From Methylocystis sp. Sn-Cys (GTDB lineage: Bacteria; Pseudomonadota; Alphaproteobacteria; Rhizobiales; Beijerinckiaceae): a stretch of DNA of 64,000 nucleotides. The notes under the pieces were generated by a model. That model had not been told where the DNA came from and searched no databases. It worked only from the letters and a program-made list of their open reading frames with translations. The position numbers and the translations under genes are program-made. The DNA is taken from positions 124,001 to 188,000 of the forward strand of contig NZ_JAERVJ010000008.1 in NCBI RefSeq assembly GCF_016745395.1, given 5' to 3'. Shown here in pieces: positions 8,491-27,982 of this stretch (positions are counted from its first letter, which is position 1; each line of letters begins with the position of its first letter).

Positions 8491-8496
8491 TGATCT

Positions 8497-11500: not shown

Positions 11501-12359
11501 TCGTTCCGCGCATCCATTCGAGCTTGTCTCGCGCTGTCGTAAAGTCGAGCGCAACGAGCGAGAGTGCGGCGCGCGCGAACATCCGCGCCAAACGCCAAAG
11601 AAAATAGCCCGCGCCGTAATGGAGCCGCAACACGCGGCCAAATCCGGGCGCATAGGCGCGCGCGCGCTCGAGGGAGGCGCCGGCTCCTCCGGCGCCAACC
11701 TGATCGTGATGAACGATCAGATCGCTTTGGAACCAGGCGACGGCGCCGAGGCTCAGTCCCCGAAGCACATAATCCGTCTCTTCGCCCGATTTGAAAGCCG
11801 TCGACGCGCCCACGCCGAGTTCTTCGTTGAAGGGGCCGATTTTGCGAGCCAGTTCGGCGCGCAAGAAGATCGTGTTGGAGTTGCCGCAGAACCACACGTT
11901 GTGGCGATCAATCGCAACGGTCTCCGTCAGAAAATTCCCGAGGGAGTCTTTGCCCGAGGCGTCGACGGTCCTGCCCATGATCAGCTCGATGTCAGGATTT
12001 CGCGCGAAGCGTGTTGCGATGTCGGCGATGAGCCCATCCGGATACCAGCAATCGTCGTCGGGAAAGCAAATCAGCGCTCCTCTCGCTTCCGCAAGGCCGA
12101 CATTTCGAGCTCGGGAGAGACCGCGCGGCGAGGTCAAATGTGAGATTTTGAGCTTGCCCGCATAGGCGGCGAGGAGGGGATCGAGTGCGCCCGGCGGATT
12201 TTGGTCGACCAAAATCACCTCGAAGTCGTCGCTCGTTTGCCGGGCAAGAGATTCCAGCAGCCGGCTGAGCGGCGCGGTGCGGCCGACCGTGCAAAGGATG
12301 AGTGATAGGCTCGGGCTCCCGGATGCGAGACTCTCTGCCGGCCCATTAGCGCTGCGCAT
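11475..12359 (-). CDS. Family 2 glycosyltransferase
   Basis: 294 residues with a GT-A fold: LSLILCTVGRTAPLSRLLESLARQ at the N-terminus, VDQNPP for the nucleotide pocket, SRARNVGLAEA, and the metal-binding DxD region CFPDDDCWYPDG (about residues 99-110). GEETDYVLRGLSLG matches the E-D/E-x-D acceptor-site motif. It probably adds a sugar to the repeat unit of the polysaccharide encoded around it. It is transcribed opposite to its neighbours: convergent with wecG and divergent from the next glycosyltransferase. Confidence 0.85.
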   Translation of the reverse strand: MRSANGPAESLASGSPSLSLILCTVGRTAPLSRLLESLARQTSDDFEVILVDQNPPGALDPLLAAYAGKLKISHLTSPRGLSRARNVGLAEARGALICFPDDDCWYPDGLIADIATRFARNPDIELIMGRTVDASGKDSLGNFLTETVAIDRHNVWFCGNSNTIFLRAELARKIGPFNEELGVGASTAFKSGEETDYVLRGLSLGAVAWFQSDLIVHHDQVGAGGAGASLERARAYAPGFGRVLRLHYGAGYFLWRLARMFARAALSLVALDFTTARDKLEWMRGTIKGYRASL

Positions 12360-12460
12360 GAATTCTGCCTTCTAGAAAGTAGTTAGGTCGATCTTTATCA
12401 TTTTCCCCGTAAATCCTTCGCTAAATTCGGCGGAATGCCATGGGGAGACGGCGGGCGCTA

Positions 12461-13582
12461 ATGAAGATCGTTCATGTCGTTCGTCAATTCTGGCCTTCGA
12501 ATGGCGGGTTGGAAGAATTCGTGCGCAGGCTCGCGCTCGAGCAGATCGCCAAAGGCGACGATGTCCGCATCGTTACGCTGGACGAATTGTTCACGCGTCG
12601 GGGCGTGAAGCTCCCTGAGCGCGAGACGCGGGAAGGGATCGACATCCAGCGCATCCCTTTTCGCGGGTCGTCACGTTACCCCTTGGCGCCGAGCGTGCTC
12701 CGCCACATTGGCGATGCGGAGATCGTTCATGTGCATGCGATAGACTTTTTCTTCGATTTTCTTGCCCTGACTCTTGGTGTGCGTCACCGGGCCCTTGTCG
12801 CGACCACGCATGGCGGCTTCTTCCATACGTCCAAAAACTCTTTGCTCAAGCAAATCTGGTTCAATACCGTGACGCGGCTGTCCTCTCGCTTTTATGGCGC
12901 GATCGTCGCTTGCAGCGAGAGTGATTATCAGATGTTTGCGGGTATATCGCCTGCTAATCTGCGTCTCGTCGAGAACGGGGTCGATATTGCAAAATTCGCG
13001 AATCTGGCCAGCGCCGAACCGGTCAAAGCGATGATAACGATCGGGCGGCTCTCCGATAACAAAAGGATCGACCGTCTTCTCGATATGATGTCGGCCTTGG
13101 CGGCCAAGGATGATGAGTGGCGGCTGCATATTGTCGGAACTCAGTCCGATTGGTCGGGCGAACGCTTACGCAACGAGATTTCCGCGCGCGGCCTCGATGC
13201 CAAAGTGGAATGCTATCTGGGGCTCGACGACGCCGGCGTCGCAGAGGTGATCCGGCAATCCAGCATCTTCGTCAGCGCCTCCGAGCATGAAGGGTTTGGC
13301 ATAGCGCTCGTCGAAGCGCTGAGCGCAGGTCTCCTTCCGGTCGTCCATAGCAACGCGGCCTACCGCGGGTTTGCTTCGAAGCACGGCGCCGTTCGCATCG
13401 TCGATTTTGAAGACTCCCGATCAAGCGCGGCCGCCGTTCGAGGCGCATTCGCGGATCTTGCCGCATCTCCGAACTTGCGCGACGACGGGATCAAGGTTGC
13501 GGAAAAATTCACGTGGCCGCAGGTCGGGCAGAAATACCAAACGGTTTATAGAGACGTCCTCGGGCGGCGCGCCAGTGGATGA
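12461..13582 (+). CDS. Family 4 (GT-B) glycosyltransferase
   Basis: 373 residues from ATG 12461 (GGGGAGACGG about 11 bp upstream; an alternative ATG at 12440 adds seven residues). MKIVHVVRQFWPSNGGLEEFVRRLA is the N-terminal glycine loop of GT4 enzymes; SASEHEGFGIALVEALSAGLLPVV (about residues 272-295) is the E-x7-E nucleotide-sugar site. The product is a cytoplasmic retaining glycosyltransferase, probably acting on the same lipid-linked oligosaccharide as the adjacent enzymes. Confidence 0.88.
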   Translation: MKIVHVVRQFWPSNGGLEEFVRRLALEQIAKGDDVRIVTLDELFTRRGVKLPERETREGIDIQRIPFRGSSRYPLAPSVLRHIGDAEIVHVHAIDFFFDFLALTLGVRHRALVATTHGGFFHTSKNSLLKQIWFNTVTRLSSRFYGAIVACSESDYQMFAGISPANLRLVENGVDIAKFANLASAEPVKAMITIGRLSDNKRIDRLLDMMSALAAKDDEWRLHIVGTQSDWSGERLRNEISARGLDAKVECYLGLDDAGVAEVIRQSSIFVSASEHEGFGIALVEALSAGLLPVVHSNAAYRGFASKHGAVRIVDFEDSRSSAAAVRGAFADLAASPNLRDDGIKVAEKFTWPQVGQKYQTVYRDVLGRRASG

Positions 13583-13642: not shown

Positions 13643-14707
13643 TCAGCGACGGCGCGCGCGTCCATAGGCGCTTAGAACGCTCATCTGCGGCCGATCGTGG
13701 CCGTCTTTTGGTTCAACCGAGAACATATAGTCGCCCCACCAGGCGCCCGCCGCCCAATAAGCCCAACCGATCCATACGTCGCGGTTCTGCGCCATAAAGT
13801 CGAGCATCGCACGACCTTCGGCCAACGCTTCCGGCGTCGCCGCGAATCCAAATTCCCCGAGAAACGCCTTGGCGTGGCGGGCGCGCGCCCATTCAGTAAA
13901 CTCTTTCAAACGCGCCTTGCCGGCGCCCAAACTCGCCTGAGGCGATGTGCCGGAGCTATCGGCGTCGAGATATTGGTGCAGCTCATAGGCGAAGTTGTCT
14001 CCTGGGTCTACGACGCCCGTCATGACGGCGCCATTGTCGGTATTGGTCCAGGAATGCGCGCCGCTCCAATAGGAGCCAGGAACGAGGATAAGCTGACGGG
14101 CGCCGCTCTTCCGAATGGCGGCGATTGCAGCGTTGGCGCCGGTCAACCATTCGGCGGCCGATTGTTCGTGCGGCTCGTTCATCAAACCGAAAACGACGTT
14201 GGTACGGCCGCGTAACCGCGCGGCGATCTCACCCCAGACGGCAGCGAACTCTTGTGTCGCTGAAGCGTCTCGGCCAATGAGCCGTGAGTCGATCGCGCCA
14301 TACTGATGGAGATCGATGATGACGTCGGCGCCCTTGCGCGCCGCATAATCGATCAAACTGACAAGGGCGCGCCAATCCTCGGTCACGATCGATTTATCGC
14401 TGACGAACAGTCGGCTGCTCAGCACGGGGATCCGGAACGTGAGCAATCCTCGCTCGGTGAAATAGTCGATCTGTTGCGTCGTCGGCAGGACGTAATCGAT
14501 GTTTGGGCGGTTGCGCCCTGGATTCAACTCCGCGCCAGACAGATTTACGCCCGTCTTCCACGCATCCGCGCAGAGAGCGACGTTTGGCGCGAAGACGAGG
14601 CTTGCCGCGAGGGCGATGGCGGACAGTCTCGAGAAGAGCGCCAAAGCGCGCTTTCGCGTGGCGGACTCGAGACGAGACGGATTGGAAAAGTGGAGCTTTG
14701 ATCGCAA
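13643..14707 (-). CDS. Exported glycoside hydrolase family 5 (endoglucanase-like)
   Basis: 354 residues with a signal peptide of about 47 residues (AIALAASLVFAPNVALCADA). The GH5 TIM barrel shows DLHQYG, acid/base Glu178 in VVFGLMNEPHE and nucleophile Glu285 in AFLGEFG, with GWAYWAAGAWWGDY near the end as substrate-stacking aromatics. Glycanases of this type are common in exopolysaccharide clusters, where they trim or release the polymer. It reads against the cluster and is therefore separately expressed. Whether it cuts beta-1,4-glucan or the cluster's own product is unknown. Confidence 0.88.
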   Translation of the reverse strand: MRSKLHFSNPSRLESATRKRALALFSRLSAIALAASLVFAPNVALCADAWKTGVNLSGAELNPGRNRPNIDYVLPTTQQIDYFTERGLLTFRIPVLSSRLFVSDKSIVTEDWRALVSLIDYAARKGADVIIDLHQYGAIDSRLIGRDASATQEFAAVWGEIAARLRGRTNVVFGLMNEPHEQSAAEWLTGANAAIAAIRKSGARQLILVPGSYWSGAHSWTNTDNGAVMTGVVDPGDNFAYELHQYLDADSSGTSPQASLGAGKARLKEFTEWARARHAKAFLGEFGFAATPEALAEGRAMLDFMAQNRDVWIGWAYWAAGAWWGDYMFSVEPKDGHDRPQMSVLSAYGRARRR

Positions 14708-15163: not shown

Positions 15164-16690
15164 ATGTCCTTCGACCGTTTCGCGCGAAATTCGATCTTCG
15201 GCACGATTGCCGGCCTCAGCTCGGCTCTGGGCAGCTTCCTTGGGATGGTCATCGTGGCGCGGACGCTTGGTCCCGTCGGTTCTGGCGTTGTCAGCATGGG
15301 AATCTGGCTTGCCGGGACGGCCGTGACTTTCGCCGATCTGGGACTGCCTCTCACAGTATCCCGTTTTGTTCCCGAGTTGAACGCGCGCGAACAAAACCTG
15401 GAGGCGCGCGCGTTTGCTCCTTATTTTTTGAAAATGGTGTTGCTGACGACGGCGATCGTCGTCGGCCTATGCGTCGCTCTGGGCGTCGGCGGCGCCGAAT
15501 GGCTGCGCGACCATGTGCGATTCAGCATTCTGTCCAGCTCTCCGGATTCGATCTGGCTCGTTGTGGGATTTGTCTTCGCGTGTCAGGCCATCGGCAATTT
15601 TGGCCTATCCACGCTCCGGGGAGAGCAGCGCTTCGACCGAGCTGCGAAGCTGACGACTCTTGGGGCCCCGATCCAACTGATCGCGATGGCGACGGGGGCT
15701 ATTATGGGAGGCGCCGAAGGCGCGCTGCTCGGTTATGCGGTGGGCGGCATGGCGACGGCGAGCGTCGCTTTGCGGTTAATCGGCGCCAAAGTCGATTTGC
15801 CCGACGAGCTGAAACGCCGATCATGGCGCTTCGCCGTCAATAGCTGGATCGTCGGCGTCATTTCGACCATCGTCTGGTCGCGGGTGGAGCTTGCCTTTCT
15901 GGATTATTGGCGGGGCGCGCGGGAGGCGGGACTCTACTCGGCCGCCTATACGCTATGCGCCCTGGCCGTGCAGGGTCCGATGCTCATGACCGGCGGCCTC
16001 CTCGCCTATTTCTCCGAACGCCACGCTGTTTCGGATCAGTCGGGCCTCAAAGAGGCCTATGCGCAGGCCGTGCGATTTATGAGTCTTCTTCTGCTTCCCG
16101 CCTGTTTCGGTATGGCGGCGATCACGCCCGTTATCTTGCCTCTGCTCTTCGGCGACGCATTTTCCGACGCTGCTCCGGCTGCGGCGATCCTTGTTGGCGC
16201 GCAGGCCCTCGGCGCTATTTCGACGGTCAGCTCGACGTTTCTCATGTCGGTCGAGCGCGGCGCTTTTCTGGTGCGTGTCGGCCTGCTCGGCGTCCTGTTC
16301 TCGCTCCTGGCCGGAATGACGGTCATTCCGTTTTTCGGTCTCGAGGGCGCGGTGATCTCGCGGGCCTTTGTGCAAGGATTGTTAACCATCCTGGCGTTCA
16401 TCTTCATCGAGAAAGGGCTGCAGTGCCCATTTCCCCTCGGCGCCGTCCTTCGAATTACCGCCGCGGCGCTGGGCTGCGCGATCGCCGCGCGCGCCATCAT
16501 TGTTCTGTGGCCGCAGCCTGTTGCACTCTTTCTTGCTATTCCCGCGGGCGCGATTCTTTACGTCGTGGCGATCCTCGCTTTCCGCGCCCTGACGCCGAGC
16601 GACATCCAGGCGGTGAGCAAGGTCGCGAACAGGCTGGCTGCACGAGCGGCCCCATTGCTCGGCGCCTTTCAGGCGAGGCGACGCGGGTGA
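15164..16690 (+). CDS. Polysaccharide flippase (Wzx/MATE-like, oligosaccharide flippase family)
   Basis: 508 residues with about 12-14 membrane segments spread evenly. The N-terminus FGTIAGLSSALGSFLGMVIVARTLGPVGSGVVSMG matches the polysaccharide biosynthesis protein family, which flips undecaprenyl-linked repeat units across the inner membrane. A C-terminal basic tail (ARAAPLLGAFQARRRG) faces the cytoplasm. It is the first gene of an apparent co-directional unit running to 27802; the gap to the next gene is about 100 bp. Confidence 0.88.
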   Translation: MSFDRFARNSIFGTIAGLSSALGSFLGMVIVARTLGPVGSGVVSMGIWLAGTAVTFADLGLPLTVSRFVPELNAREQNLEARAFAPYFLKMVLLTTAIVVGLCVALGVGGAEWLRDHVRFSILSSSPDSIWLVVGFVFACQAIGNFGLSTLRGEQRFDRAAKLTTLGAPIQLIAMATGAIMGGAEGALLGYAVGGMATASVALRLIGAKVDLPDELKRRSWRFAVNSWIVGVISTIVWSRVELAFLDYWRGAREAGLYSAAYTLCALAVQGPMLMTGGLLAYFSERHAVSDQSGLKEAYAQAVRFMSLLLLPACFGMAAITPVILPLLFGDAFSDAAPAAAILVGAQALGAISTVSSTFLMSVERGAFLVRVGLLGVLFSLLAGMTVIPFFGLEGAVISRAFVQGLLTILAFIFIEKGLQCPFPLGAVLRITAAALGCAIAARAIIVLWPQPVALFLAIPAGAILYVVAILAFRALTPSDIQAVSKVANRLAARAAPLLGAFQARRRG

Positions 16691-16791
16691 GGTTCCCCGA
16701 ATATGGTTAGCGGAATTTTAAGCCGCTGGTTCTTAAAATTGCGGCCAGCGACCGACGCCTGGTTTTATGGCGTCGCGTGGAAAGCGGGTTT

Positions 16792-18960
16792 ATGAATCGC
16801 GTGTCGGCCAGAAGCGTCAAGCAGCTCGGGAGGTTCGGCGCTCGGCCGGAACTCGAGGCCAGGACGCGGGCGCTTCCGCAGGATCGCCTCGATTTGGCGC
16901 GATTGATTCAGTTTCTTCGGCGCCGTGCGCGATGGATCGGGGGGACGACGGCCCTCGCTTTGGCGCTCGGACTCGTCTTTTACCTCGTCGCGCCGGCGAA
17001 ATACCGTTCGGCTGCGGAATTGCTGATCGATCCACGTGGAATTGCGGTCTCCAAGACGGACTCGGCGTCGCAAACCCAGGGCGCCGACAGTAATCTGCTC
17101 GATCTCGAAACGTACCGCTATCTCATCCTGTCCAAGGCTGTCCTCGGCTCCGTCGTCGATAGCGAGCATCTGGCTGACGACCCGCGTTTTGCCGGGCCCG
17201 GCTTTTTCGGCAGGCTTTTCAAATTCGGCGCCAAGAGCGGCGACGCGCGCGAAGCGGCGTTAGCCAAGTTGATCGACAGCGTCGAGGTTGTGCGCGGCGA
17301 ACGCGCGCTTATTCTCGACGTCGTCGTCACGACGTCGGACCCTCAGCTTTCGGCGCGCCTCGCGAACGCCATCAGCCGGGCGTTTTTCACGCAACAGGCC
17401 AATGCGCGCACCGAGGCGGCCAAGCGCGCCGGGCTGGCGTTACAGACACGCGCCGAACAATTGGCTCGGCAGGTCCAGGAAGCGGAAGTCAAGGTCGAAC
17501 GCTACAAATCCGAACATGATCTCTCCGGTCAGGCGGGCAAGCTCACCGAGGAGCAGCAGCTCAACGATGTGAACTATCAACTCGGGCTGGCGCGCTCGCA
17601 GACGGCGACGCAGCATGCGCGCTACGAGGAGGCGTTGCGGCTGAGCCGCTCGCGCGCCGAGACGGACCAATTGAGCGAGGCCGAATCCTCGCAGGTGTTG
17701 ATTGGATTGCGCGCGCAATACGCCGCTCTCATGCAACAGAAATCGGCGCTAGAAACTCAGTTCGGAGCTCAGTATCCCGCCGTCGTCGACGTAAACCGCC
17801 AGTTGCGCACGGTGAGCGGATTGATCAAGGACGAGCTGACGCGGCTCGTCGGCGCCGCGCTCAGTGATTACCGCCGTGCGCAGGCGAAGGAAGCGGCGCT
17901 GGAGAAAACCCTCACGGAGCTCAAGCAGAAGTCATACCGCCAGAATGAATCGGTAATCGGCTTGCGCGCCTTGGAGCGCGGCCTCGAGGCGACGCGGGCG
18001 CTATACCAATCCTCCTTGACGCGCGCCAAAGACCTCGAGGAAACGCAGGACGTCGACAGCTCGACGTCGCGCATCATTACAGAAGCCACGCCCGCGTCGA
18101 AACGCAGCGGCGCGCCCTTGCCGCTGATACTTGGAGGCGTGCTGATCTGCGGCCTGGGTCTGGGATCGGCGCTCGGCTATCTGCGCGATCTTTCCAGCAA
18201 CAACGTGGATGCTGGCGCCGGCGCTTCGCTGGGAGACCGTCTTGGCCTGCCCGTCGTTGCGCAGGCGGTGTTTGCGCGCCGGGACGCGATGGGTAACGCT
18301 GCGGCTTCCCGGCGCGGCGATCCTCCTGCGATAGAGGTCCAATCGGAGCAGTTGCTCGATTGGATTCTCTCCATACCGCCACGATATGGCGCGCGCATCA
18401 TATGTGTCGCCGGGCTAGACGGTGATTTACGGAAATCGAGGATATTGTTCGAGTTGGGCGTCGCTTGTCTTTTGGACAAGCGACGCGCCCTTGTCGTCGA
18501 TACCGACCTCGACGGGGGCGCGGCGAGCACCTTTTGGCGCAAAGCTGGCGAAGGCTTGGTGAGCGCGGAACGCCGTGTGCAGCCGTTCGAATTGGCCGCA
18601 TTCGAATTGGCGCCGTTCGAAGAATTCGAAGCTTCTTTTGCAATCTACGGCCCTGGCCCCGGGGCGCTCGAATTCTTGTGGCTGGGCGACGTAACGGGCC
18701 GGAACAGGAATTCTTTGACGGCGGGGCGCCTCGAACGAGCGCTTCAGCCTTGGACAGAGGACGCTGACATTGTCTTGATAGACGCAGGCATCGACGAGAA
18801 CCTGGACCGCGCCTGCAGGGAGATTTCCGACGGCCTGGTCGTGCTCGTCGACAGCGACCATATGCGTGCTTCCGACATGGCGAGCCTATCGGATCGGCTC
18901 GGGCCGAAATATCCGGATTCAACTTGCGTCATGCTCGTCAGCGAAAGGGCGGCGGCGTGA
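16792..18960 (+). CDS. Wzz/GumC-type polysaccharide co-polymerase with a degenerate kinase-like domain
   Basis: 722 residues. ATG 16792 is preferred to GTG 16777, as GGAAAGCGGG lies just ahead of it. After a 40-residue cytoplasmic head come a first membrane span (TTALALALGLVFYLV), a large periplasmic region with the Wzz fold and a long coiled coil (about 215-390), a second span (LPLILGGVLICGLGLGSALGYL) and a C-terminal P-loop-like domain. The Walker A' strand RALVVDTDLDGG remains, but the Walker A position reads CVAGLDGDLRKS, without GxxxxGK(S/T), and there is no C-terminal tyrosine cluster. It should set chain length and help export, but is unlikely to be an active tyrosine kinase. Confidence 0.85.
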   Translation: MNRVSARSVKQLGRFGARPELEARTRALPQDRLDLARLIQFLRRRARWIGGTTALALALGLVFYLVAPAKYRSAAELLIDPRGIAVSKTDSASQTQGADSNLLDLETYRYLILSKAVLGSVVDSEHLADDPRFAGPGFFGRLFKFGAKSGDAREAALAKLIDSVEVVRGERALILDVVVTTSDPQLSARLANAISRAFFTQQANARTEAAKRAGLALQTRAEQLARQVQEAEVKVERYKSEHDLSGQAGKLTEEQQLNDVNYQLGLARSQTATQHARYEEALRLSRSRAETDQLSEAESSQVLIGLRAQYAALMQQKSALETQFGAQYPAVVDVNRQLRTVSGLIKDELTRLVGAALSDYRRAQAKEAALEKTLTELKQKSYRQNESVIGLRALERGLEATRALYQSSLTRAKDLEETQDVDSSTSRIITEATPASKRSGAPLPLILGGVLICGLGLGSALGYLRDLSSNNVDAGAGASLGDRLGLPVVAQAVFARRDAMGNAAASRRGDPPAIEVQSEQLLDWILSIPPRYGARIICVAGLDGDLRKSRILFELGVACLLDKRRALVVDTDLDGGAASTFWRKAGEGLVSAERRVQPFELAAFELAPFEEFEASFAIYGPGPGALEFLWLGDVTGRNRNSLTAGRLERALQPWTEDADIVLIDAGIDENLDRACREISDGLVVLVDSDHMRASDMASLSDRLGPKYPDSTCVMLVSERAAA

Positions 18961-20195
18961 GCGCCGGCCACTCTGACGCGTTCGACTGGCTACGCACCGC
19001 CGAGACTCGTTATGGGGCGAGCTTCGCGGGATGGATTGTTTTCGGCGCGCTGACGTTCAATTTCATCCTGTGCTTCGTCAACACGAAGATTTTCGGGGTC
19101 AGCGCCGCAATTGTGATGGCGTCGGAGATGGCGCTTCTTGGCCTCGCCTTACTCCTGGTCCTCAGAGACAATCCGCCCTTATACGCCGTCCTCGCGGGCT
19201 ATGTGTCCTTCGCGCTCTATTTGAGCAGCCTGCAAGGCGCGTTGGACATGAAGGCGATACGGGATATTCTTATCCCGATCGTTTTTTTGTTTCTTGGCCG
19301 CCGTCTCGGTTCGCCGGAAGCAGGCGACCGGCTTGTCGATATATGCGTCTGGACAGTGCTCGTCGTCGGCATCTGCGAATATTTGTTCCTGCCGTATTAT
19401 CTGAAGTTCTTCGACATATTGGCCTATTACGTCGCGCGCGGGACGGTCGACGCCGCCGCGGCGGACACCACTGGAACAGGACTTTTCGCTAGCGGAATTC
19501 GGCCGGAGGGGCGCACGCTCCTGCCGTTCCTTGGCCCGCACCGTGTTTCGTCGATTTTCCTCGAGCCTGTTTCGGTCGGCAATTTTGGAGCGGTTGTCTT
19601 CTCGTGGATCATATTGCGCAATGTCGAGCGTCCGCTCGTCATGGCGATGAAGCTTCTACCCGCCACCGCCGTTTTCGTGCTCGCCGACGCGCGTTTCGGC
19701 CTGATGGTGTCGCTGACGAGCTTCGTCTTGTATCCGCTGGCGCGGTATATCGGACGGTTGCCGATCCTGTTGGCGCCCTTCTGCGTCCTTCTGCTTCTTG
19801 CCGTAAACGGCTTCCTCAACCCCGACAAGCCGTGGGACAATGGTTTCGCCGGTCGCCTTCTTCTGACCGGTCAGATGCTTTCGCATCTCGATTTTTGGGA
19901 GGCCATGGGCTTCGTGCAGGTGACGCGTTTTGTCGCCGATTCAGGATATACCTACACGCTCACCAAATTCGGGCTGCTCGGCTGCATCGGCCTCTGGAGC
20001 TTATTCGTGCTGCGCCCCGTCTCGGATGAAGTGGCCTGGCGCTATCGGCTGTTTACCGCAATTTACATCATCGCATTGCTGATGATCAGCAATTCAATGT
20101 ATTCGATTAAAACCGGGGCTCTGCTCTGGTATCTTCTCGGCTGTTTGGAGGCGCCCGCAGCGCTCGATGAATATTACGAAGGGGTTGAAAGTTGA
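18957..20195 (+). CDS. Wzy/O-antigen-ligase-like polysaccharide polymerase
   Basis: 412 residues from a GTG that overlaps the previous stop (GTGA); an upstream ATG at 18924 would overlap more and lacks support. About ten to twelve hydrophobic segments with a larger loop around residues 160-210 (GTVDAAAADTTGTGLFASGIRPEGR, then FLGPHRVSSIFLEPVSVGNFG), a layout usual for Wzy-type polymerases and O-antigen ligases. FLEPVSVGNF resembles the periplasmic-loop signature of EPS polymerases. It would join lipid-linked repeat units in the periplasm with the preceding co-polymerase. Sequence identity in this family is always weak, so the call rests on topology and context. Confidence 0.75.
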   Translation: MSAGHSDAFDWLRTAETRYGASFAGWIVFGALTFNFILCFVNTKIFGVSAAIVMASEMALLGLALLLVLRDNPPLYAVLAGYVSFALYLSSLQGALDMKAIRDILIPIVFLFLGRRLGSPEAGDRLVDICVWTVLVVGICEYLFLPYYLKFFDILAYYVARGTVDAAAADTTGTGLFASGIRPEGRTLLPFLGPHRVSSIFLEPVSVGNFGAVVFSWIILRNVERPLVMAMKLLPATAVFVLADARFGLMVSLTSFVLYPLARYIGRLPILLAPFCVLLLLAVNGFLNPDKPWDNGFAGRLLLTGQMLSHLDFWEAMGFVQVTRFVADSGYTYTLTKFGLLGCIGLWSLFVLRPVSDEVAWRYRLFTAIYIIALLMISNSMYSIKTGALLWYLLGCLEAPAALDEYYEGVES

Positions 20196-21967
20196 CCGCC
20201 ACGATCCCCACTGCCTTCAGCGCCGCAACCGAGGGGGGAATTCCTGTCACCTTCTCCGGTTGCGCGGGCTTTTACCATCCGGGCGGGGGCGATGTCGCCG
20301 TGCTGATGTGCAGCGCCTGGGGCTATGAAGAATTATGCGTTCGCGCAAGCTGGCGGCGAATGGCCGCCGAATTGGCCGCGGCCGGCTTTCCAACGCTCCG
20401 CTTCGATTATCCGGGCGTCTGTGATTCACTCGGCGCCTCGACAGAGCCATGGCGCCTCGACGATTGGATCGACGCCGCCAAAGCGGCCGCCGCCTTGCTG
20501 CTGGATATCTCGCAAGCGCGCCGGATCATCGTGCTTGGTCAAGGCCTCGGCGCGGGCGTCGCGATCCTTGTGGCGCAACAGCTCTCGCGTGTCGAAGGCC
20601 TCGTTCTCCTTGCGTCATTTTCCAAGGGGCGCGCTTATGTTCGCGAGCTGAGTGTCTCCGCCACTATGCTCGCAGATGCGGCTGGCGTTTCCATCGCCGC
20701 CCGCGCCGACGGGTCTTTGACCATGCTGGGCTTCGAGCTTCCGGCCTCGTTCGTCGGCGATCTCAAGAAACTCAATTTCCTCGAGTTGGAAAGCTTGCCG
20801 GCGCCTCGCGTTCTTTTGGTCGATCGCGTTCAAAGCCAGCAGGAACTCGCAAACCATTTCAACTTTCTTGGCGCGGCCGTCGAGCAGGTTCCCTACACTG
20901 GCTACGAGGAGCTCGTTTCCAATCCGACGATCACCGAGCATCCCCGCGAGGTCTTTTCCGGCATTGTCGACCACATGCTCGCTTGGAGCGGCGATCGAAC
21001 GCGCCCCTTTAATTCCACGCCGCGTGCGCCGCAACCCGCCAAGCCGCTCGCGGGCCCTTCGTGGCGGGAAACGCCGCTACACCTGGCGAACGGTCATGTG
21101 TTCGGCGTGTTCTGCGAACCGCTGACTCCGCGCGTCGAGAGTGTTGCGCTGTTTCTCAACTGCGGCGCCAATCCGCACACGGGTTGGCGGCGCATGACCG
21201 TCGACCATGCCCGCGTTCTGGCGGCGCATGGGATTGCGTCTCTTCGCATCGATACGACCGGGATTGGCGATTGCCCGGCGCCGATTGACTTTGGCGAAAG
21301 AATATACACGCAGGCGCAAACTGCGGATGTTCTCGCCGCCGTCGATTGGCTGGCGGGGCAAGGCAGGGGGAAAGTCTCCGTGATTGGCGTATGTTCCGGC
21401 GCCTATCAAGCCTTCCACGCCGCCATCCGCGACCCGCGGATCGAACAAGCGATTATCATCAATCTCGTGGTCTTCGCCCGCGACCCCGCGCGCTCGGTCA
21501 GCGAATTGATAAAATATCACTCTCGCAGCAATACGGAATATTTCTCTCGCGTGCTCGATCGCGACGGGCTGATCAAGCTGCTCAAAGGCCAAGCGCCTAT
21601 CCGCAAGCTGCTTTCGGTTGTTTTGGGGCGGATCGCAGATTCCGCCAAATACAAATTGATGTGGCTGATTCACTCGTTGGTCGGCAAAAAGCTCTTGAAC
21701 GAACCGCAGAAGCGATTGGCGGAATTGGCTGCGCGCGGAACGCGGATCTCCTTCGTGACGAGCGCGGGAGATTTGGGAGAGGATGAGCTGACCAAATATT
21801 TCGGCAAGAATTGCGTCGGTCTGCGGGCATATGACAATGTCACTTGGTCGCGTATCCAAAACGCCGACCATAATCTGACGACGCAGGAAAGCGTCGATTG
21901 GCTGCGAGATCATCTTCTCGCCCGACTCGACGATCCGATAAAGAGTTCATTCAGACAAGCGTCGTAA
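20192..21967 (+). CDS. Tandem alpha/beta-hydrolase protein with altered nucleophiles
   Basis: 591 residues from TTG 20192, overlapping the polymerase stop by 4 bp (TTGA) with GAAGGGG upstream. It contains two alpha/beta-hydrolase units. Unit 1 (about 20-270) has VLMCSAWGYEELC and an elbow VLGQGLGAG in which Gly118 stands where the Ser nucleophile should be. Unit 2 (about 295-580) has an elbow VIGVCSGAYQA with Cys401 at the nucleophile place and NADHNLTT supplying a likely histidine. The units resemble hydrolases known from exopolysaccharide/exosortase clusters. Likely a carrier-thioester or acyl transferase/hydrolase for the next genes; the first unit may be structural. Confidence 0.72.
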   Translation: MTATIPTAFSAATEGGIPVTFSGCAGFYHPGGGDVAVLMCSAWGYEELCVRASWRRMAAELAAAGFPTLRFDYPGVCDSLGASTEPWRLDDWIDAAKAAAALLLDISQARRIIVLGQGLGAGVAILVAQQLSRVEGLVLLASFSKGRAYVRELSVSATMLADAAGVSIAARADGSLTMLGFELPASFVGDLKKLNFLELESLPAPRVLLVDRVQSQQELANHFNFLGAAVEQVPYTGYEELVSNPTITEHPREVFSGIVDHMLAWSGDRTRPFNSTPRAPQPAKPLAGPSWRETPLHLANGHVFGVFCEPLTPRVESVALFLNCGANPHTGWRRMTVDHARVLAAHGIASLRIDTTGIGDCPAPIDFGERIYTQAQTADVLAAVDWLAGQGRGKVSVIGVCSGAYQAFHAAIRDPRIEQAIIINLVVFARDPARSVSELIKYHSRSNTEYFSRVLDRDGLIKLLKGQAPIRKLLSVVLGRIADSAKYKLMWLIHSLVGKKLLNEPQKRLAELAARGTRISFVTSAGDLGEDELTKYFGKNCVGLRAYDNVTWSRIQNADHNLTTQESVDWLRDHLLARLDDPIKSSFRQAS

Positions 21968-22039
21968 CATCCTCGCCGGAAACGACGAGCAATTCATTGC
22001 GACGCGGACTTGTGTGTCCGTATCGGCGGAGAAATGGAA

Positions 22040-22291
22040 ATGAACGAGGCCATTCGGCAGGCTCTTGAGGAACATGGCCGCCTTGCTGTGTCAGTCGATA
22101 CGCTCACCGGAGCGTCCGACCTCTACGCGGCCGGCCTGACCTCCTTCGCAGCGGTTCAACTTATGCTTGCTCTCGAAGAGAAATTCGACATCGAGTTTCC
22201 GGATAGAATGCTCAACCGAAAAAGCTGGGCGTCGATCGACATGATCGCGAGCTGCATCTCCGAGCTCAAAGGTAAAGGCGTCGCTGCATGA
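22040..22291 (+). CDS. Acyl/aminoacyl carrier protein
   Basis: 83 residues from ATG 22040, which has GGAG 8 bp upstream (ATG 22034 sits too close to it). The four-helix carrier fold is evident, with DLYAAGLTSFAAVQLMLALEE carrying the phosphopantetheine serine, Ser35. The sequence is acidic but less so than fatty-acid AcpP, and its motif is G-L-T-S rather than D-S-L. It overlaps the next gene by 4 bp and sits two genes before the amino acid:carrier-protein ligase, so it is the expected acceptor of the activated amino acid. Confidence 0.9.
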   Translation: MNEAIRQALEEHGRLAVSVDTLTGASDLYAAGLTSFAAVQLMLALEEKFDIEFPDRMLNRKSWASIDMIASCISELKGKGVAA

Positions 22292-23442
22292 GCGCCCCGC
22301 TCGACCGTATTTCGAGCGTCGTCGCTGTCGCTGCGCGCCATGCGGAGGAGGTCGACAGAGTAGCGCGTTTTCCCTTTGAAGCCTTTGCGGCTCTCAAAGA
22401 CGCGCGGCTGCTGTCTCTCCTCATCCCGGTAGAATTTGGCGGCGACGGCGCGCGGCTTGCCGAAGTCGCGGAGGTTTGCTCCGCGCTGGGACAGCATTGC
22501 GCGTCGACGGCCATGATCTTCGCCATGCATCAGATCAAGGTTTCCAGCCTCGTCTCTTATGGGGCCGAAACCGATTGGGGGAAGCGCTTCCTGCGCCGCA
22601 TCAGCGACGAGCAACTGCTTCTTGCTTCGGCCACCACTGAAGGCGGCGTCGGCGGCAATATGCGCGCGAGCGTTTGCGCCTTCGAGCGCGAGGGAAGCGA
22701 TTTTCGCGTCGAAAAGCGCGGCGCTTTGATCTCCTATGGCGCTCAAGCCGACGCCATCTTGGTCACGGCGCGGCGTGCGCCCGATGCGGCCGCCTCCGAC
22801 CAGCTCATGGCCGCCATCACCAAAGATCAATACACGCTGTCGCGCACGGGCGTATGGGATACGCTCGGCATGCGCGGGACTTGTAGTGACAGCTTCATTC
22901 TGACAGCCAAGGCCCCGACCGAGCAGATTCTCGGCGCCGATTTCGCCGAAATCGCCGCGCAATCGATGCTGGCGACAGCCCATCTTCTGTGGGGTTCGGT
23001 GTGGTATGGCGTCGCCGTCGACGCGCTCGTGCGCGCTCAAAATTTCGTTCGCGCAGAAGCGCGCAAGGGTGGCGGCGGGCTGCCGCCCGGGGCATTGCGC
23101 TTGGCGGAGGCGTCGACGAAAGCCGAAGCGATGCGCGCAGCGCTCAAGGAAGGTCTCGCCCGCTTCGAATGTGCGCAGGAGAATCACGAAGACCTCAATT
23201 CGATGAGCTTCGGCGTCCGATTCAACAATCTAAAGACTTTTGCCTCTGAAACGGCGATCGACATCATCAATCACGCGCTGTTGATCACCGGGATCTCGGG
23301 CTATCGGAACGACAGTCCGCACAGCGTGGGCCGCCATATGCGGGACGCGCTCTCGGCGCGGATCATGATCTCGAACGACCGGATCTATCAGAACCTGTCG
23401 AATATGCTGCTTGCCCATCGACTCGATCCGAGGCTTTCTTAA
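22288..23442 (+). CDS. Acyl-CoA-dehydrogenase-like flavoprotein
   Basis: 384 residues with the three ACAD domains: N-terminal helices (LLIPVEFGGDGARLAEVAEV), middle beta-domain (LLASATTEGGVGG and RGTCSDSF) and C-terminal helices. Near the end, where many family members have the catalytic-base signature YEGTxxI, this protein has RIMISNDRIYQN, so that glutamate is absent. ACADs acting on carrier-bound aminoacyl groups are known, for example the prolyl-carrier oxidases of pyrrole pathways. Because it is coupled to a carrier protein and an amino acid ligase, the substrate is probably an aminoacyl or acyl thioester on the adjacent carrier, not free CoA. That assignment is inference. Confidence 0.82.
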   Translation: MSAPLDRISSVVAVAARHAEEVDRVARFPFEAFAALKDARLLSLLIPVEFGGDGARLAEVAEVCSALGQHCASTAMIFAMHQIKVSSLVSYGAETDWGKRFLRRISDEQLLLASATTEGGVGGNMRASVCAFEREGSDFRVEKRGALISYGAQADAILVTARRAPDAAASDQLMAAITKDQYTLSRTGVWDTLGMRGTCSDSFILTAKAPTEQILGADFAEIAAQSMLATAHLLWGSVWYGVAVDALVRAQNFVRAEARKGGGGLPPGALRLAEASTKAEAMRAALKEGLARFECAQENHEDLNSMSFGVRFNNLKTFASETAIDIINHALLITGISGYRNDSPHSVGRHMRDALSARIMISNDRIYQNLSNMLLAHRLDPRLS

Positions 23443-24354
23443 ATGTGTGGCGCTTGCTCCAGTTTTCTCGAGAACTTATTCGCCAAAGGCATTCTTCATG
23501 CGACTGGCGTCGATGGGTTATATGCGCGTGGCGGACGCTTCGAGGCTGTCATCGAGGGGATCGACGCGCTTATCTCGAATTTCGGCGCTAAGGACGGCGC
23601 CGAGGTCATCCGCTTTCCGCCTGGGATGAATCTGTCGCTCTTTCAAAAGAGCGGCTACATGAAATCATTTCCCCAGCTCGCAGGGACCGTGCATAGTTTT
23701 GCCGGATCCGAGCGCGAGCACTTGTTGCTGCTCGATCGGATTCACAATGGCGAGAAATGGACCGACGGGCAACAGGCGACAGAGATCGCGCTGACGCCCG
23801 CGGCTTGCTACCCGCTTTATCCGATCGTCGCCCAGCGCGGTAAACTACCCGAAGGCGGCCTGCTTTTCGACGTGCAGTCCTATTGCTTCCGTCACGAGCC
23901 GTCGAAAGACCCGGCGCGGATGCAGATGTTTCGAATGCGGGAGTTTGTGCGTATCGGCCCGCCGGAGACTGTCACGAGCTTCCGGCAGGATTGGCTGGAT
24001 CGCGGCCGGGAATTCGCAGGCGCGCTCGGCCTGCCATTCGACATCGACGTCGCGAACGATCCGTTCTTTGGTCGCAGCGGGCGCATGATGGCCTCCAGCC
24101 AGCGTGAACTCGGACTGAAGTTCGAACTCCTTGTTCCGATCGAAGACGCCGACAAGCCGACGGCCTGCCAGAGCTTCAATTACCATCAGGACCACTTTGG
24201 TTCGCTCTGGGGCATCCAGACGGCTGCCGATGAAGTCGCGCATACGGCGTGCGTGGGTTTCGGAATGGAGCGCTTGGCGCTCGCCTTGTTCAAACACCAT
24301 GGGCTCGACACCGATGGCTGGCCTTCTTCAGTTCGCGCCGCGCTCCAATTCTGA
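23443..24354 (+). CDS. Amino acid:[carrier protein] ligase (class II aaRS homologue)
   Basis: 303 residues, starting directly after the previous stop (TAA then ATG; GAGG 10 bp upstream). It is the catalytic core of an atypical seryl-tRNA synthetase with no tRNA-binding arm: motif 2 region [24 protein letters not shown] and motif 3 [12 protein letters not shown]. The zinc ligands of the Bradyrhizobium enzyme (Cys131, Glu176, Cys279, recalled from the literature) match Cys122, Glu167 and Cys270 here with a constant offset of nine. Characterised homologues activate glycine or alanine with ATP and load it on a carrier protein's phosphopantetheine rather than on tRNA. The physiological product of such operons is, to my knowledge, unknown. 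Confidence 0.92.
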
Positions 24355-25327
24355 GGAAGCGCCGCGCGTCTCGCCTGCGAGCTATGTGTCGCACGCGTTG
24401 CATCGCCCGGAACGCGACTGGCCTCAGACCAATTGCTATGTCGATCTCTGGATCGAGGTGATTGCAACGCATGGCTTCGCGCCCGAGGCTATGCTCGGCT
24501 TCACGGTTCGTCAGGATTTCGAGGGCGATCAGTTCACTTTCTTCAAGCCGTCGCATGCAGATCTCGACTTTCTGTACGGTTTGCGGGTGGATGAGCTCGC
24601 TCTCTACGACAGCCTCGAAAATCATATCGAGACGCAGTTGCATCGCGGGCGCATTGTCGTCATCGAGGTGGATAGTTTTTACCTGCCGGACACGCGCGGA
24701 ATTTCCTACCACAGCGAACATTCGAAGACGACGATCGGCATCGTCGGCTTTGATGTCGCGCAATCGCAAATGCTCTATTTCCACAATGACGGCCTCTTCG
24801 CGCTCGAGAACGACGACTTCCTCGGCGTGCTCGGCCGCGCGCCCGAGCAGAAGCGCGAAGATGCGCTTTTTCCTTATGCGGAGTTTGCGCGTTTCGAGGC
24901 GATACCCGAGCGGGGGGTGGATGTTCGCAAAAAAGCAGAGCAGCTTCTTCGCGCGCATCTGGCGCGTCGGCCGGAGCGCAATCCTGTGAGCGCGTTTGCG
25001 GTTGCGTTTCCGCAGCTCTGGCAAAACCTCGAACAGCGACCGCCTGCTTTTTTCAACGTCTTCGCCTTCAACACGCTTCGGCAATTTGGCGCGAATTTCG
25101 AGCTGCTCGGCAGTCATCTCAACTGGCTGAGGCCCGATGGCGCATTCGCGCGAGAAAGCGCCGAGTGCCGCGCGCTTTCCTCGGCGGCAAAGGCGCTGCA
25201 ATTCAATGTGGCGCGGGCGGCAACCCGGCGACGGGCGATCGATCCCACGCAAGCCTTGAATGAAATGGCGGCTGCTTATGATCGCCTTTTCGCCGGTCTC
25301 CTCGCCACGCTCGACGGCGCGAGATAA
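24314..25327 (+). CDS. DUF1839 family protein
   Basis: 337 residues from ATG 24314, which overlaps the ligase gene by 41 bp; GTG 24386 is a possible later start. No signal peptide or membrane span. It begins its conserved part with [16 protein letters not shown] and continues with [45 protein letters not shown] and [14 protein letters not shown]. The VDSFYLPDT...YH segment resembles cysteine-protease-like NRPS-associated folds that begin with a conserved Cys (here Cys in QTNCYVD), but this is only a visual similarity. DUF1839 genes are regular neighbours of amino acid:carrier-protein ligases, so a role in using the aminoacyl thioester is a fair guess. Confidence 0.8.
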
Positions 25328-25330
25328 CAG

Positions 25331-27802
25331 GTGGCGCGCGTTCTTTCGGTGCAAGGAGAACGCCGGCGCCGGCTCGAAGACGGTTGGTCATTTCTTATCG
25401 ACGAAGGCGGCGACTGGTCGCATCCTGACGTAATTCCATCGGATGCTGTATGGCGCGCCGCCAAGGTCCCCGGCGTCCTCGCGCAAGCTTTGATCGAGCA
25501 AGGCTGTCGTTACGAGCATCTGCCGCCGCTCGACGGGATCGACTGCTGGTACCGCCTGTCCTTCGAGAATGAGGTTGAAGCCGATCTCGTGTTTCACGGG
25601 CTCGCGACGCTCGCGGAGATTTTCCTGGACGGAGCGCTGGTGCTGTCGAGTGACAATATGTTCGTTCGGGAGGCAATTCGTTCTATCCAGCCCGGACAGC
25701 ACGATCTGCACATCCGGTTTCGCTCGGTCCTGCGCGAGATAGACACGAAGAAGGGGCGCGCGCGTTGGCGCCCGCGCATGATCGTTCCCAGCGGGCTGAG
25801 GCACATTCGGACAACGGCGTTGGGACGGCTACCTGGATTTGCGCCGCCGACGCCGCCGGTCGGGCCTTATCGGGCTGTCGAGTTGATCGAGCACGGTCCG
25901 TTGCGTTTGCGTGACGCGGCGGTTCGCGCCGAGGTCGATAGGAGGGGCGCGACACTTGCGGTCAAGGTGGATGTCGCCACGCCCGAAGTGGATTCGGGCA
26001 CGCTATTCTGTGGCGAGCGTCATGTAGCTTTTGAAAAGCAAGGGGAGGGACGTCTCGTCGCCGAACTCCGGCTGGTTGCTTACGAGCCTTGGTTTCCTCA
26101 CAGCATCGGCGCGCCGAAATTATACGATGTTCACGCCGAGATCGGCGGCGTTAGCGTCGATCTCGGGCGCACGGGCTTTCGCCGCGTCGACCTTTCGCGT
26201 GGCGAAGACGGCGCCGATTTCGCCCTCTCGGTGAATGGCGCGCCGCTCGTCTGTCTCGGCGCCGTCTGGACGGGAGCGGATCCACACAGTCTCGACGGCT
26301 CACGCCAGACGCTTGCGCCGCTCCTTGAAGCGGTGCGAGACGCGGGCATGAATATGCTGCGTGTTCCTGGAATACTCTACTACGAGAGCGACGACTTTTA
26401 CGAGCTGTGCGACGAACTCGGGATCATGGTGTGGCAGGATTTCGCCTTCGCCAACTTCGATTACCCAATCGACGCGCCTGAATTTCGTGCGAGCGTTGCG
26501 CGTGAGGCCGCAGAGTTTCTTTCCCGCGTCGAGGCGTCGCCGTCTTTGGCGGTGACTTGTGGGGGCAGCGAGGTCTATCAGCAGGCCGCGATGATGGGGA
26601 TTGCCGAGGCGAAATGGCGTTCGCCATTGTATGAGGAGCTTTTGCCGGAAGCGGTGCGGCAGCAAAGGCCCGACGTGATTTACGTTGAGAACTCGCCTTC
26701 CGGCGGCGCCTTGCCCTTCCAATCCGATTATGGCGTTTCTCACTACTATGGCGTCGGCGCCTATCGCCGCCCGCTCGATGACGCCCGACGCGCCAATGTG
26801 CGTTTTGCCACCGAGTGCCTCGGTTTTTCCTGTCCGCCGGAGACGGCGTCGATCCTGCGCAATTTCGGGTCGGCGCAAATTGCGTCGCCGCTCTGGGAGC
26901 CTCGTATCCCGCGCGACATGGGCGCGCTGCAGGATTTCAGGGACGTCACCGAGCACTATATGCGGCTTCTCTATGGCTGCGAGCCAGAGCGGCTGCGGGC
27001 GTCCGACCCTGACCGCTATCTCGACCTCGCACGCGCTTGCGTCGCCGAAACGATGACGTCGACCATCTCGGAGTGGCGGCGTTGCGGTTCGGAGGTGCGT
27101 GGCGCGCTTGTTTGGTTCTTGAAGGATCTTTGGCCGGGGCCGGGGTGGGGCGTTCTCGATTCAGACCGATTGCCGAAATCCTCCTATTACGCGTTGAAGC
27201 GCGCCTTTGCGCCGGCGCAGACGTTCCTGATAGACGAAGGGGTGAATGGTCTTCATCTGCACCTCGTCAATGCCGGGCCCGAGACGCTCGAAGGCGACGC
27301 GTCGCTGACCTGCTACCGCGACGGAAGAACCATTGTCATGCACGCGACACGCTCGATCAGAGTGGCGCCGGGACAGGTGAGCGTCACTCGAGACATTGCG
27401 TTCTGGGGCGGGTTCTTCGACACGGCGCTCGCCTATAATTTCGGACCGCCGTCGCATGACGTCACTGTCGCGGCGTTCCGGCCGAAAGACAATCCAGACC
27501 ATGTGTTGGAAGCATTTCACTTCCCGCTTGGGTTCGGCATAGCGCGCGCCGAATGTGGCTTACGAGCGGGGGTTGTTTTCGACGGCGCGGGCTTTGCCCT
27601 GATGTTGACCGTGGATTCTTTCGCGCAGTCGGTCTGCATAGAGTGTGAAGAATTTCTCCCGGAGGATAATTGGTTTCATCTGGCGCCGGGGAAGCAAAAG
27701 CGCATTGCGCTGCGGCCGCTCCGGCCATCGGCTACTCACCCGCGCGGTAGCGTGAGGGCGTTGAACGGTAAGCGAGTAGCTTACGAATGGCGGCCCGCTT
27801 AG
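25331..27802 (+). CDS. Glycoside hydrolase family 2 protein (beta-mannosidase-like)
   Basis: 823 residues from GTG 25331, three bases after the DUF1839 stop. No signal peptide is visible, so it should be cytoplasmic. Domain order: jelly-roll sugar-binding domain (about 15-190), Ig-like domain (about 200-290), TIM barrel (about 300-640) and a C-terminal beta region. Probable catalytic residues are Glu414 in TCGGSEVYQ (acid/base; the usual motif is NE preceded by G-N) and Glu495 in FATECLGF (nucleophile). It closes the carrier-protein module. It might hydrolyse, or by transglycosylation build, a mannoside- or glucoside-type conjugate that receives the aminoacyl product. Confidence 0.85.
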   Translation: MARVLSVQGERRRRLEDGWSFLIDEGGDWSHPDVIPSDAVWRAAKVPGVLAQALIEQGCRYEHLPPLDGIDCWYRLSFENEVEADLVFHGLATLAEIFLDGALVLSSDNMFVREAIRSIQPGQHDLHIRFRSVLREIDTKKGRARWRPRMIVPSGLRHIRTTALGRLPGFAPPTPPVGPYRAVELIEHGPLRLRDAAVRAEVDRRGATLAVKVDVATPEVDSGTLFCGERHVAFEKQGEGRLVAELRLVAYEPWFPHSIGAPKLYDVHAEIGGVSVDLGRTGFRRVDLSRGEDGADFALSVNGAPLVCLGAVWTGADPHSLDGSRQTLAPLLEAVRDAGMNMLRVPGILYYESDDFYELCDELGIMVWQDFAFANFDYPIDAPEFRASVAREAAEFLSRVEASPSLAVTCGGSEVYQQAAMMGIAEAKWRSPLYEELLPEAVRQQRPDVIYVENSPSGGALPFQSDYGVSHYYGVGAYRRPLDDARRANVRFATECLGFSCPPETASILRNFGSAQIASPLWEPRIPRDMGALQDFRDVTEHYMRLLYGCEPERLRASDPDRYLDLARACVAETMTSTISEWRRCGSEVRGALVWFLKDLWPGPGWGVLDSDRLPKSSYYALKRAFAPAQTFLIDEGVNGLHLHLVNAGPETLEGDASLTCYRDGRTIVMHATRSIRVAPGQVSVTRDIAFWGGFFDTALAYNFGPPSHDVTVAAFRPKDNPDHVLEAFHFPLGFGIARAECGLRAGVVFDGAGFALMLTVDSFAQSVCIECEEFLPEDNWFHLAPGKQKRIALRPLRPSATHPRGSVRALNGKRVAYEWRPA

Positions 27803-27840
27803 CGGGGACGCCTGCGGCAAGAGACCAGATCAACGATAGC

Positions 27841-27937: not shown

Positions 27938-27982
27938 TGCGTGTCGTGCATTAATTGGCTAATTTAACGCAGGAGGCGCGCC

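Follow-up and report, generated by a model that had tools for sequence, protein, structure and literature searches.

The AlmEFG system, which places glycine on lipid A, and the DltABCD system, which places D-alanine on teichoic acid, both hand an adenylated amino acid to a carrier protein (CP) and from there to an envelope glycoconjugate, and AlmE-AlmF-AlmG and DltA-DltC (PMC12930378, available in part) are the nearest working precedents for the route proposed here. The subject is a group of six genes in a 64,000-nucleotide stretch of DNA, below called the window, from the 4.02 Mb genome of Methylocystis sp. Sn-Cys (genome G000, contig C19 in our set). These genes encode a protein with two alpha/beta-hydrolase domains (HYD), a CP, an acyl-CoA dehydrogenase (ACAD)-like flavoprotein, an amino acid:carrier-protein ligase (LIG), a DUF1839 protein and a family 2 glycoside hydrolase (GH2), and they follow directly on genes for polysaccharide assembly. 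We hold with moderate confidence that the six proteins form one cytosolic pathway that adds an aminoacyl group, possibly in oxidised form, to a sugar of a Wzx/Wzy-type polysaccharide.

While this scheme matches that of Alm and Dlt, the ligases of those systems are of the ANL type, whereas LIG resembles class II aminoacyl-tRNA synthetases (aaRS). The window CP matches DltC weakly (E 2.5e-9, below cut-off), and the window system differs from both precedents in having a probable papain-like transferase together with the ACAD-like enzyme, GH2 and HYD. No MBOAT protein (the DltB type) turned up among 30 window proteins in a general Pfam scan, no dedicated search for MBOAT or AlmG having been made. 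Loading of glycine or alanine on a CP is known for the LIG family from the work of others (as told in the accessible parts of PMC9437257 and PMC2922099), and the same portion of the former, a 2022 review, still called the biological role of this loading unknown.

The gene set itself has a counterpart in Agrobacterium. A note added in proof in 2010 (PMC2922099, available in part) described the ligase as linked to liposaccharide genes and to genes for a CP, a redox enzyme, a glycosidase and a conserved but uncharacterised protein, Atu2574, and predicted that the amino acid is attached through an amide bond to an amino sugar of the cell surface. The Atu2574 region as presented there shares these components with the window, and we infer that Atu2574 is a DUF1839 protein. 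The initial annotation of the window knew of no described pathway that joins these parts; the central idea of that annotation was, however, already in print as the 2010 prediction. Unlike the present analysis, the available portion of the 2010 account contains no tandem hydrolase, no parallel with exosortase-A, no two ligase branches and no counts. Atu2573 of Agrobacterium is listed elsewhere as a hub gene of a co-expression module (excerpt of PMC11941606).

Two further systems are comparable in single features. Exosortase-A (XrtA) loci hold a CP beside a hydrolase pair and a dedicated adenylating TIGR03098 ligase, comparable to HYD, CP and LIG; there the ligase is of the ANL type, the hydrolases are two separate proteins and an exosortase is present, whereas the window has an aaRS-like ligase and a single HYD. 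BtrH is a papain-like protein that takes an acyl group off a carrier protein and places it on the amine of a sugar (family description in the accessible part of PMC10318531), as proposed here for DUF1839. It belongs to another Pfam family than DUF1839 and is likened to it by mode of action, not by sequence.

A conserved five-gene cassette

In the window, the genes for the Wzx flippase, the Wzz chain-length protein, the Wzy-like polymerase, HYD, CP, the ACAD-like protein, LIG, DUF1839 and GH2 all lie on the + strand. The initial annotation had placed this run of genes correctly, and profiles bear out the families it named, with the Wzy-like protein recognised by its hydrophobic segments and its place. 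HYD (20192..21967) matches two families without reaching the cut-off of either, TIGR03100 (E 2e-25) and TIGR03101 (E 8e-20). CP (22034..22291, in an open reading frame open from 22010) carries a phosphopantetheine (Ppant) serine in the motif GLTS and scores 106.7 bits against NF005480 (cut-off 72). It is followed by the ACAD-like flavoprotein (22288..23442; PF02771/PF00441), LIG (23443..24354; NF005479 with 484.6 bits against a curated cut-off of 357; closest solved structure PDB 4h2w, E 4e-99), DUF1839 (24314..25327; PF08893, E 1e-113, 379.9 bits, cut-off 22.5) and the beta-mannosidase-like GH2 (25331..27802; PDB 5n6u, E 8e-52). The cognate CP is therefore encoded near LIG, with the ACAD-like gene between the two.

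The DNA also agrees with the junctions reported earlier: the Wzy-like gene and HYD overlap by TTGA at 20192-20195, CP and the ACAD-like gene by ATGA at 22288-22291, the ACAD-like gene and LIG abut at 23442/23443 (TAA|ATG), and LIG and DUF1839 overlap by 41 bp (24314-24354). DUF1839 and GH2 are separated by 3 bp, and HYD and CP are 42 bp apart if CP starts with TTG at 22010 and 66 bp apart if it starts, as is more likely, with ATG at 22034. What had been described as a tandem hydrolase does have two hydrolase domains, which are parts of one 591-aa protein with a TTG start rather than separate genes. None of the six proteins, GH2 included, has an N-terminal hydrophobic stretch.

The arrangement was compared across 120 neighbourhoods, 40 from the order of the window (our choice among 71 ligase matches) and 80 from named records (the best 80 of 560 confirmed, mostly Rhizobiaceae). 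DUF1839 occurs in 108 of the 120, with 103 distinct sequences among them since five locus pairs repeat one sequence, and its nearest named relatives to the window are from Methylosinus species (58-59% identity). CP, ACAD, LIG, DUF1839 and GH2 stand on one strand and in the same order in 105 of these 108 loci, the other three being short or cut. Thinning at 85% ligase identity leaves 41 loci, 32 of them with DUF1839; 30 of the 32 hold all five genes and the other two are fragments, and of the 32 stretches examined 16 contain HYD and 18 contain at least one polysaccharide gene of a type seen in the window. So fixed an order indicates that the arrangement is maintained by selection, and it rules out a run assembled by chance or by hitchhiking. 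The cassette is real, conserved and functionally coherent.

DUF1839 is present in 49 of 297 genomes of the window's order and in 16 of 398 genomes sampled across the phylum, 12 of which belong to the same order and four to one other family (f109). In a stretch from each of the four f109 genomes (L197, L198, L199, L200), the five genes share a strand and keep their usual order. Genes for Poly_export, Wzz and a Wzy_C-type protein are present in L198 as well; L197 has a ManC-type protein, a weak Wzz, HYD and a second DUF1839 on the opposite strand; and the stretch L201 shows DUF1839 with a weak Wzz and HYD. Two of the four f109 genomes have two DUF1839 genes (L197 6943-7845 and 11777-12694; L201 127-1044), the second copy lying apart from the ligase and near HYD and a weak Wzz. 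In a genome of the window's order (G210; L067, about 10600-11550), DUF1839 is split, by a frameshift or an error in sequencing, into two overlapping pieces that cover positions 2-213 and 208-312 of the profile.

An obligate hydrolase partner

Counted at E<=1e-20, HYD occurs in 50 of the 297 genomes of the order: the same 49 that have DUF1839, and one more (G253), whose match covers 179 residues (E 2e-21, 77 bits), while the lowest best match among the 49 reaches 195 bits. The co-occurrence is highly significant (Fisher p 1e-55, uncorrected for kinship). In the window's own family four of 12 genomes have both proteins and eight have neither, one of these eight being of the same genus, so that shared descent alone is insufficient to explain the association. 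In 37 of the 49 genomes HYD and DUF1839 share a contig and are no more than 20 kb apart, and in a further one (G246) the GH2 end of the cassette stands beside HYD across a contig break. For seven genomes a separation of over 20 kb is established, either by the distance between the two on one contig (226 kb in G165, 766 kb in G210, 319 kb in G254) or by the contig ends (G010, G187, G249, G266). In the remaining four (G027, G137, G255, G296) they are on separate contigs at an indeterminable distance. HYD is an obligate partner of the cassette that is sometimes encoded outside it.

The two domains of HYD differ at the nucleophile elbow, which reads GxGxG in the first and GxCxG in the second domain of the window protein. 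Across 26 aligned rows longer than 500 aa, the nucleophile place of the first domain is Gly in 20, Arg in five (L034, L035, L051, L063, L125) and Ser in one (L143), and the second domain has its Cys (Cys401) in all 26, with Asp527, Asp559 and His560 invariant as well.

Among NCBIfam models, HYD is related most closely to the hydrolases 1 and 2 known from exosortase-A loci. In one such locus (L204) the order is a divergent TIGR03098 ligase, CP, hydrolase 2 and hydrolase 1, and its carrier protein matches several acyl carrier protein (ACP) models, all below cut-off; CP, hydrolase 2 and hydrolase 1 are consecutive there (8495-10463). The elbow residue is Arg in hydrolase 2 and Cys in hydrolase 1 (L185 inside L204), and likewise in a second locus (L186 inside L205), where hydrolase 2 scores far below cut-off. 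A profile of the second HYD domain gives 90 bits for hydrolase 1 of L204 and 30 bits for hydrolase 2, and a profile of the first domain gives about 54 bits for both. These domain-wise matches and the Arg/Cys elbows, with two exosortase loci as the basis, indicate that HYD resembles an exosortase hydrolase pair fused into one protein. On the same two loci, polysaccharide loci would appear to use the set of a CP, a hydrolase pair and an adenylating ligase more than once, each time with another fold of the ligase, and exosortase hydrolase 2 looks like a pseudoenzyme, which may hold in general. Exosortase itself (PF09721) has no match in the Methylocystis genome and is found in only two of the 49 cassette genomes, while both genomes with exosortase loci have it. 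The relation is therefore one of resemblance, and membership of the cassette in the exosortase-A system was rejected.

Ties to polysaccharide loci

At least 38 of the 49 cassette genomes have a Wzz or WecG gene no further than 10 kb from HYD, with about 1 expected, and at least 28 have such a gene no further than 20 kb from DUF1839, with about 1.8 expected. Counts of proximity to Wzz (PF02706), WecG (PF03808) or deacetylase were taken from listed matches and are lower bounds, and the expectations assume random gene places along the genome. In all seven genomes in which HYD and the cassette are shown to be apart, a Wzz or WecG gene stands within 10 kb of HYD, and DUF1839 is without either within 20 kb among the matches listed. 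HYD also stands beside Wzz or WecG in the four genomes with an indeterminable distance. It is the distribution of HYD and its neighbours that carry the argument for a role in polysaccharide synthesis.

A window-like arrangement within the order is that of L203, where a family 2 glycosyltransferase (GT2), Wzx, HYD, the cassette, Wzz, Wzy, a family 5 glycoside hydrolase (GH5) and a family 4 glycosyltransferase (GT4) are found within 17 kb, and in L075 and L082 the cassette is likewise surrounded by the genes for Wzx, Wzz, Wzy, GT4 and GH5 or by most of them. Co-occurrence in other genomes, which the initial annotation had named beforehand as one of the points on which its idea would stand or fall, was thus found, and its link between an activated amino acid and a surface polysaccharide gains support from HYD proximity and conserved gene order; every step after loading of the amino acid stays conditional. 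Its picture of a module fused to an exopolysaccharide operon fits the window and is too strong in general, given the distances between DUF1839, HYD and the polysaccharide genes reported above.

Two branches of the ligase

A tree of 45 ligases, with a long branch for a single fragment (L140), separates those of DUF1839 loci (branch A, 33 rows) from those of loci without DUF1839 (branch B, 12 rows) by one branch with support 100/100. The 12 branch B loci, all among the 40 neighbourhoods of the order, have ACAD and LIG and lack DUF1839, GH2 and HYD in the stretch examined. The presence of HYD (74 of 108 neighbourhoods with DUF1839, none of 12 without) separates the branches, as do GH2 and DUF1839; GT4 matches, counted at E<=1e-5 and with other GT4s included, occur in 60 of 108 and one of 12, respectively. 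The zinc-site residues of LIG are conserved throughout: Cys122 and Glu152 in 120 of 121 rows each and Cys242 in 121 of 121, which we take to be zinc ligands.

The Methylocystis genome carries one ligase of each branch, that of the window (A) and one on contig C15 (L032, B). At the latter locus (G000:C15:1-18000), the ACAD gene (6160-7359) and a LIG gene of the Bll0957 branch (7393-8304) have homoserine O-succinyltransferase, thiamine pyrophosphate (TPP)-enzyme and short-chain dehydrogenase/reductase (SDR) genes as neighbours, with no DUF1839, GH2 or HYD. Bll0957, the protein of solved structure (PDB 3mey, 4h2w), is of the same NF005479 family as LIG (E 4e-99) and is near-identical to L042, which makes it a member of branch B; DUF1839, GH2 and HYD are all missing from the stretch examined. 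Findings on the pathway of Bll0957 therefore need not hold for the DUF1839 cassette. In Bradyrhizobium, bll0957 and its ACAD neighbour bll0958 are both listed as 3.0-fold in a phaR mutant grown microaerobically (PMC10888616, accessible part).

Branch B also lends some footing to a first alternative, namely that the cassette makes a soluble secondary metabolite or a short peptide, in the manner of a non-ribosomal peptide synthetase (NRPS), and that its location reflects clustering without shared chemistry. An NRPS-like role was the one first proposed for amino acid:carrier-protein ligases, branch B (12 of 40, including L032) has ACAD and LIG while lacking DUF1839, GH2 and HYD in the stretches examined, and ten proteins that we chose from five B loci include class IV aminotransferase, SDR, TPP, pyridoxal phosphate (PLP) and AMP-binding enzymes, with no polysaccharide enzyme among these ten. 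In seven of 49 genomes, moreover, the cassette is far from HYD and from HYD's polysaccharide locus. However, the fully supported split sets the A ligases apart from those B loci, HYD tracks DUF1839 in 49 of 49 genomes and stays in polysaccharide loci even when it is apart from the cassette, and even branch B has a Wzz relative nearby in four of 12 loci, so that B may lie near envelope genes too. We consider a soluble product of the cassette rather unlikely.

Catalytic residues and proposed pathway

The Ppant serine of CP is conserved in 112 of 112 rows. In the ACAD-like protein, the place of the IYEGT-loop Glu (as in 3pfd and 8i4p) is taken by Ile361 in 118 of 118 rows, and residue 231, which corresponds to the isovaleryl-type site, alternates between Ser, Ala, Thr and Cys, likewise in 118 of 118. 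As these are presumably the two canonical catalytic Glu sites of the ACAD family, an ordinary acyl-CoA dehydrogenase was rejected. His81 came into question as a base, although butyryl-CoA dehydrogenases share a His at this place. A profile of 41 ACAD-like members scores best with 7p98 (98 bits) and gives 69.6 bits for DnmZ, 64.5 for nitrososynthase and 62 for DszC, and the relatives of the ACAD-like protein include prolyl-ACP dehydrogenase (4irn). Dehydrogenases and monooxygenase-type relatives thus score in a similar range, and the step may be an oxidation or a hydroxylation. In GH2, which is closest to beta-mannosidases, Glu414 (acid/base) and Glu495 (nucleophile), aligned to 5n6u and 2vjx, are present in 44 of 44 rows.

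A 2023 survey assigned DUF1839 to the papain-like proteins, with C(T/S)H as its catalytic set, and notes in its accessible part that the genome context of DUF1839 suggests acyl-CoA-dependent glycan processing (PMC10318531). Cys41, Thr139, Thr140 and His157 are invariant in 109 of 109 rows, and we infer that these columns correspond to the reported set.

Residues and gene company together suggest the following route, of which the steps after loading are the conditional part. LIG would adenylate a small amino acid, glycine or alanine, and load it onto CP. The ACAD-like enzyme could then oxidise or hydroxylate the CP-bound group, and DUF1839, acting like BtrH in butirosin synthesis, would transfer it to a sugar amine or hydroxyl; for this protein a ligase role was predicted in 2010 (PMC2922099, in the part available). 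HYD might perform a second acyl transfer or clear mis-loaded CP. Perhaps GH2 trims or rejects oligosaccharide in the cytosol, which is the weakest step. The decoration would take place before the lipid-linked unit is flipped.

Several observations weigh against this pathway. A cytosolic glycosidase fits none of its steps well, the ACAD-like protein may be either a dehydrogenase or a monooxygenase as both kinds of relatives score alike, and a DUF1839 profile found no significant relative among PDB sequences (best E 0.63). Nine of the 49 genomes are without Wzz or WecG within 20 kb of HYD or DUF1839 among the matches listed, and second HYD copies (L154, L156, L166, L167) have neither gene in the stretch examined. 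A Wzz relative nearby does not mark the cassette, being found in 25 of 108 neighbourhoods with DUF1839 (branch A) and four of 12 without (branch B), and was rejected as a marker by itself. The window's Wzy type is present in 16 and its GT4 in 17 of the 49 cassette genomes, compared with five and two, respectively, of 31 genomes without the cassette. At least 13 of the 49 genomes have a polysaccharide deacetylase gene no further than 10 kb from HYD, and of the four deacetylase matches in the Methylocystis genome the two listed are both away from HYD. No product, transcript or mutant of the cassette is known, and no experimental study of its product was found in the literature searched, mostly without subscription papers.

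Where a deacetylase does lie near HYD, it could free an amine for acylation, although the count above led us to reject a deacetylase that always prepares one. In four genomes it is within 2 kb of HYD (L164 6778-7659; G041, G081, G217). Similarly, neither one Wzy nor one GT4 qualifies as an obligate partner. Their patchy presence among cassette genomes implies no single polysaccharide, and the cassette seems to serve several polysaccharides rather than one.

In a second alternative, the cassette decorates another envelope glycan, such as the lipopolysaccharide (LPS) core, O-antigen or a periplasmic oligosaccharide, and not the adjoining Wzx/Wzy polymer. The cassette is tied to no single polymerase or glycosyltransferase type, AlmEFG acts on lipid A, and the available text of PMC2922099 speaks of liposaccharide. 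Yet the closeness of HYD to Wzz or WecG in at least 38 of 49 genomes and the position of the cassette amid the assembly genes of L075, L082 and L203 point to the adjoining polymer, and we regard another glycan as distinctly unlikely. That the ACAD-like enzyme and HYD turn the CP-bound amino acid into free glyoxylate or a similar small acid, which the glycan genes use or merely neighbour, is very improbable: a flavoprotein and a hydrolase beside a CP could release such an acid, and prolyl-ACP dehydrogenase is among the ACAD-like relatives, but this chemistry has no need for a DUF1839 with invariant Cys and His, for GH2 or for HYD in polysaccharide loci.

Surrounding genes in the window

The polysaccharide locus of the window runs rightward from 10751. 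It begins with a WecG/TagA/CpsF glycosyltransferase (10751..11500, + strand; PF03808, E 3e-54), followed by a family 2 glycosyltransferase (11475..12359, - strand; PF00535, E 6e-20), a family 4 glycosyltransferase (GT_p; 12440..13582, + strand; PF00534, E 2e-23) and a GH5 cellulase-like protein (13643..14707, - strand; PF00150, E 2e-48). The last has a hydrophobic N-terminus, with a Kyte-Doolittle (KD) hydropathy of 1.96 over its first 40 residues, and is probably exported. Next are the Wzx flippase (15164..16690; PF01943, E 2e-17), with nine hydrophobic segments, and the Wzz/GumC chain-length protein (16777..18960; PF02706, E 1.5e-9; TIGR01005, E 1e-44, below its cut-off). The Wzy-like polymerase (18924..20195), whose start is uncertain, has no Pfam or NCBIfam match and is assigned by eight hydrophobic segments and its position. 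Its relatives align from about residue 33 and adjoin Wzz in L045, L046, L082 and L203.

A scan for promoters and terminators over 14700-28700 gave one promoter-like site (3.5 expected) and 28 terminator-like sites (18.7 expected) and was uninformative. Beside the polysaccharide locus, a 701-aa protein (8497-10602, - strand) has a weak serine carboxypeptidase match (E 6e-11), and a strong relative of it is encoded near the cassette in Methylosinus sp. Ce-a6 (L073). Upstream of the locus lies a gene for a TolC-like outer membrane efflux protein (6260-8224), with relatives in 10 of 108 DUF1839 neighbourhoods.

Implications

What this analysis adds to the earlier prediction is an obligate hydrolase, HYD, which stays in polysaccharide loci also where the cassette lies elsewhere and which pairs a domain mostly without a nucleophile with a Cys domain, as well as the parallel with exosortase-A, the separation of the ligase branch from that of Bll0957 and the loss of the usual ACAD bases. 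Six co-travelling proteins, a second candidate acyl-transfer enzyme (HYD) and a polysaccharide locus can now be named.

Reaching further, acyl decoration of surface polysaccharides by way of a CP could be a general bacterial strategy with two interchangeable chargers, an ANL ligase, as in exosortase-A loci, or a class II aaRS relic, with a dead/Cys hydrolase pair accompanying the CP in both, and an oxidised aminoacyl group on the polymer here; we see this as possible rather than probable. The tie between cassette and polysaccharide makes the long-unknown purpose of this amino acid activation testable, and if the proposed pathway holds, it would offer a first handle on the hydrolase 1 and 2 genes of exosortase loci, and a relic of protein synthesis would be tied to surface chemistry in rhizobia, methanotrophs and their relatives.

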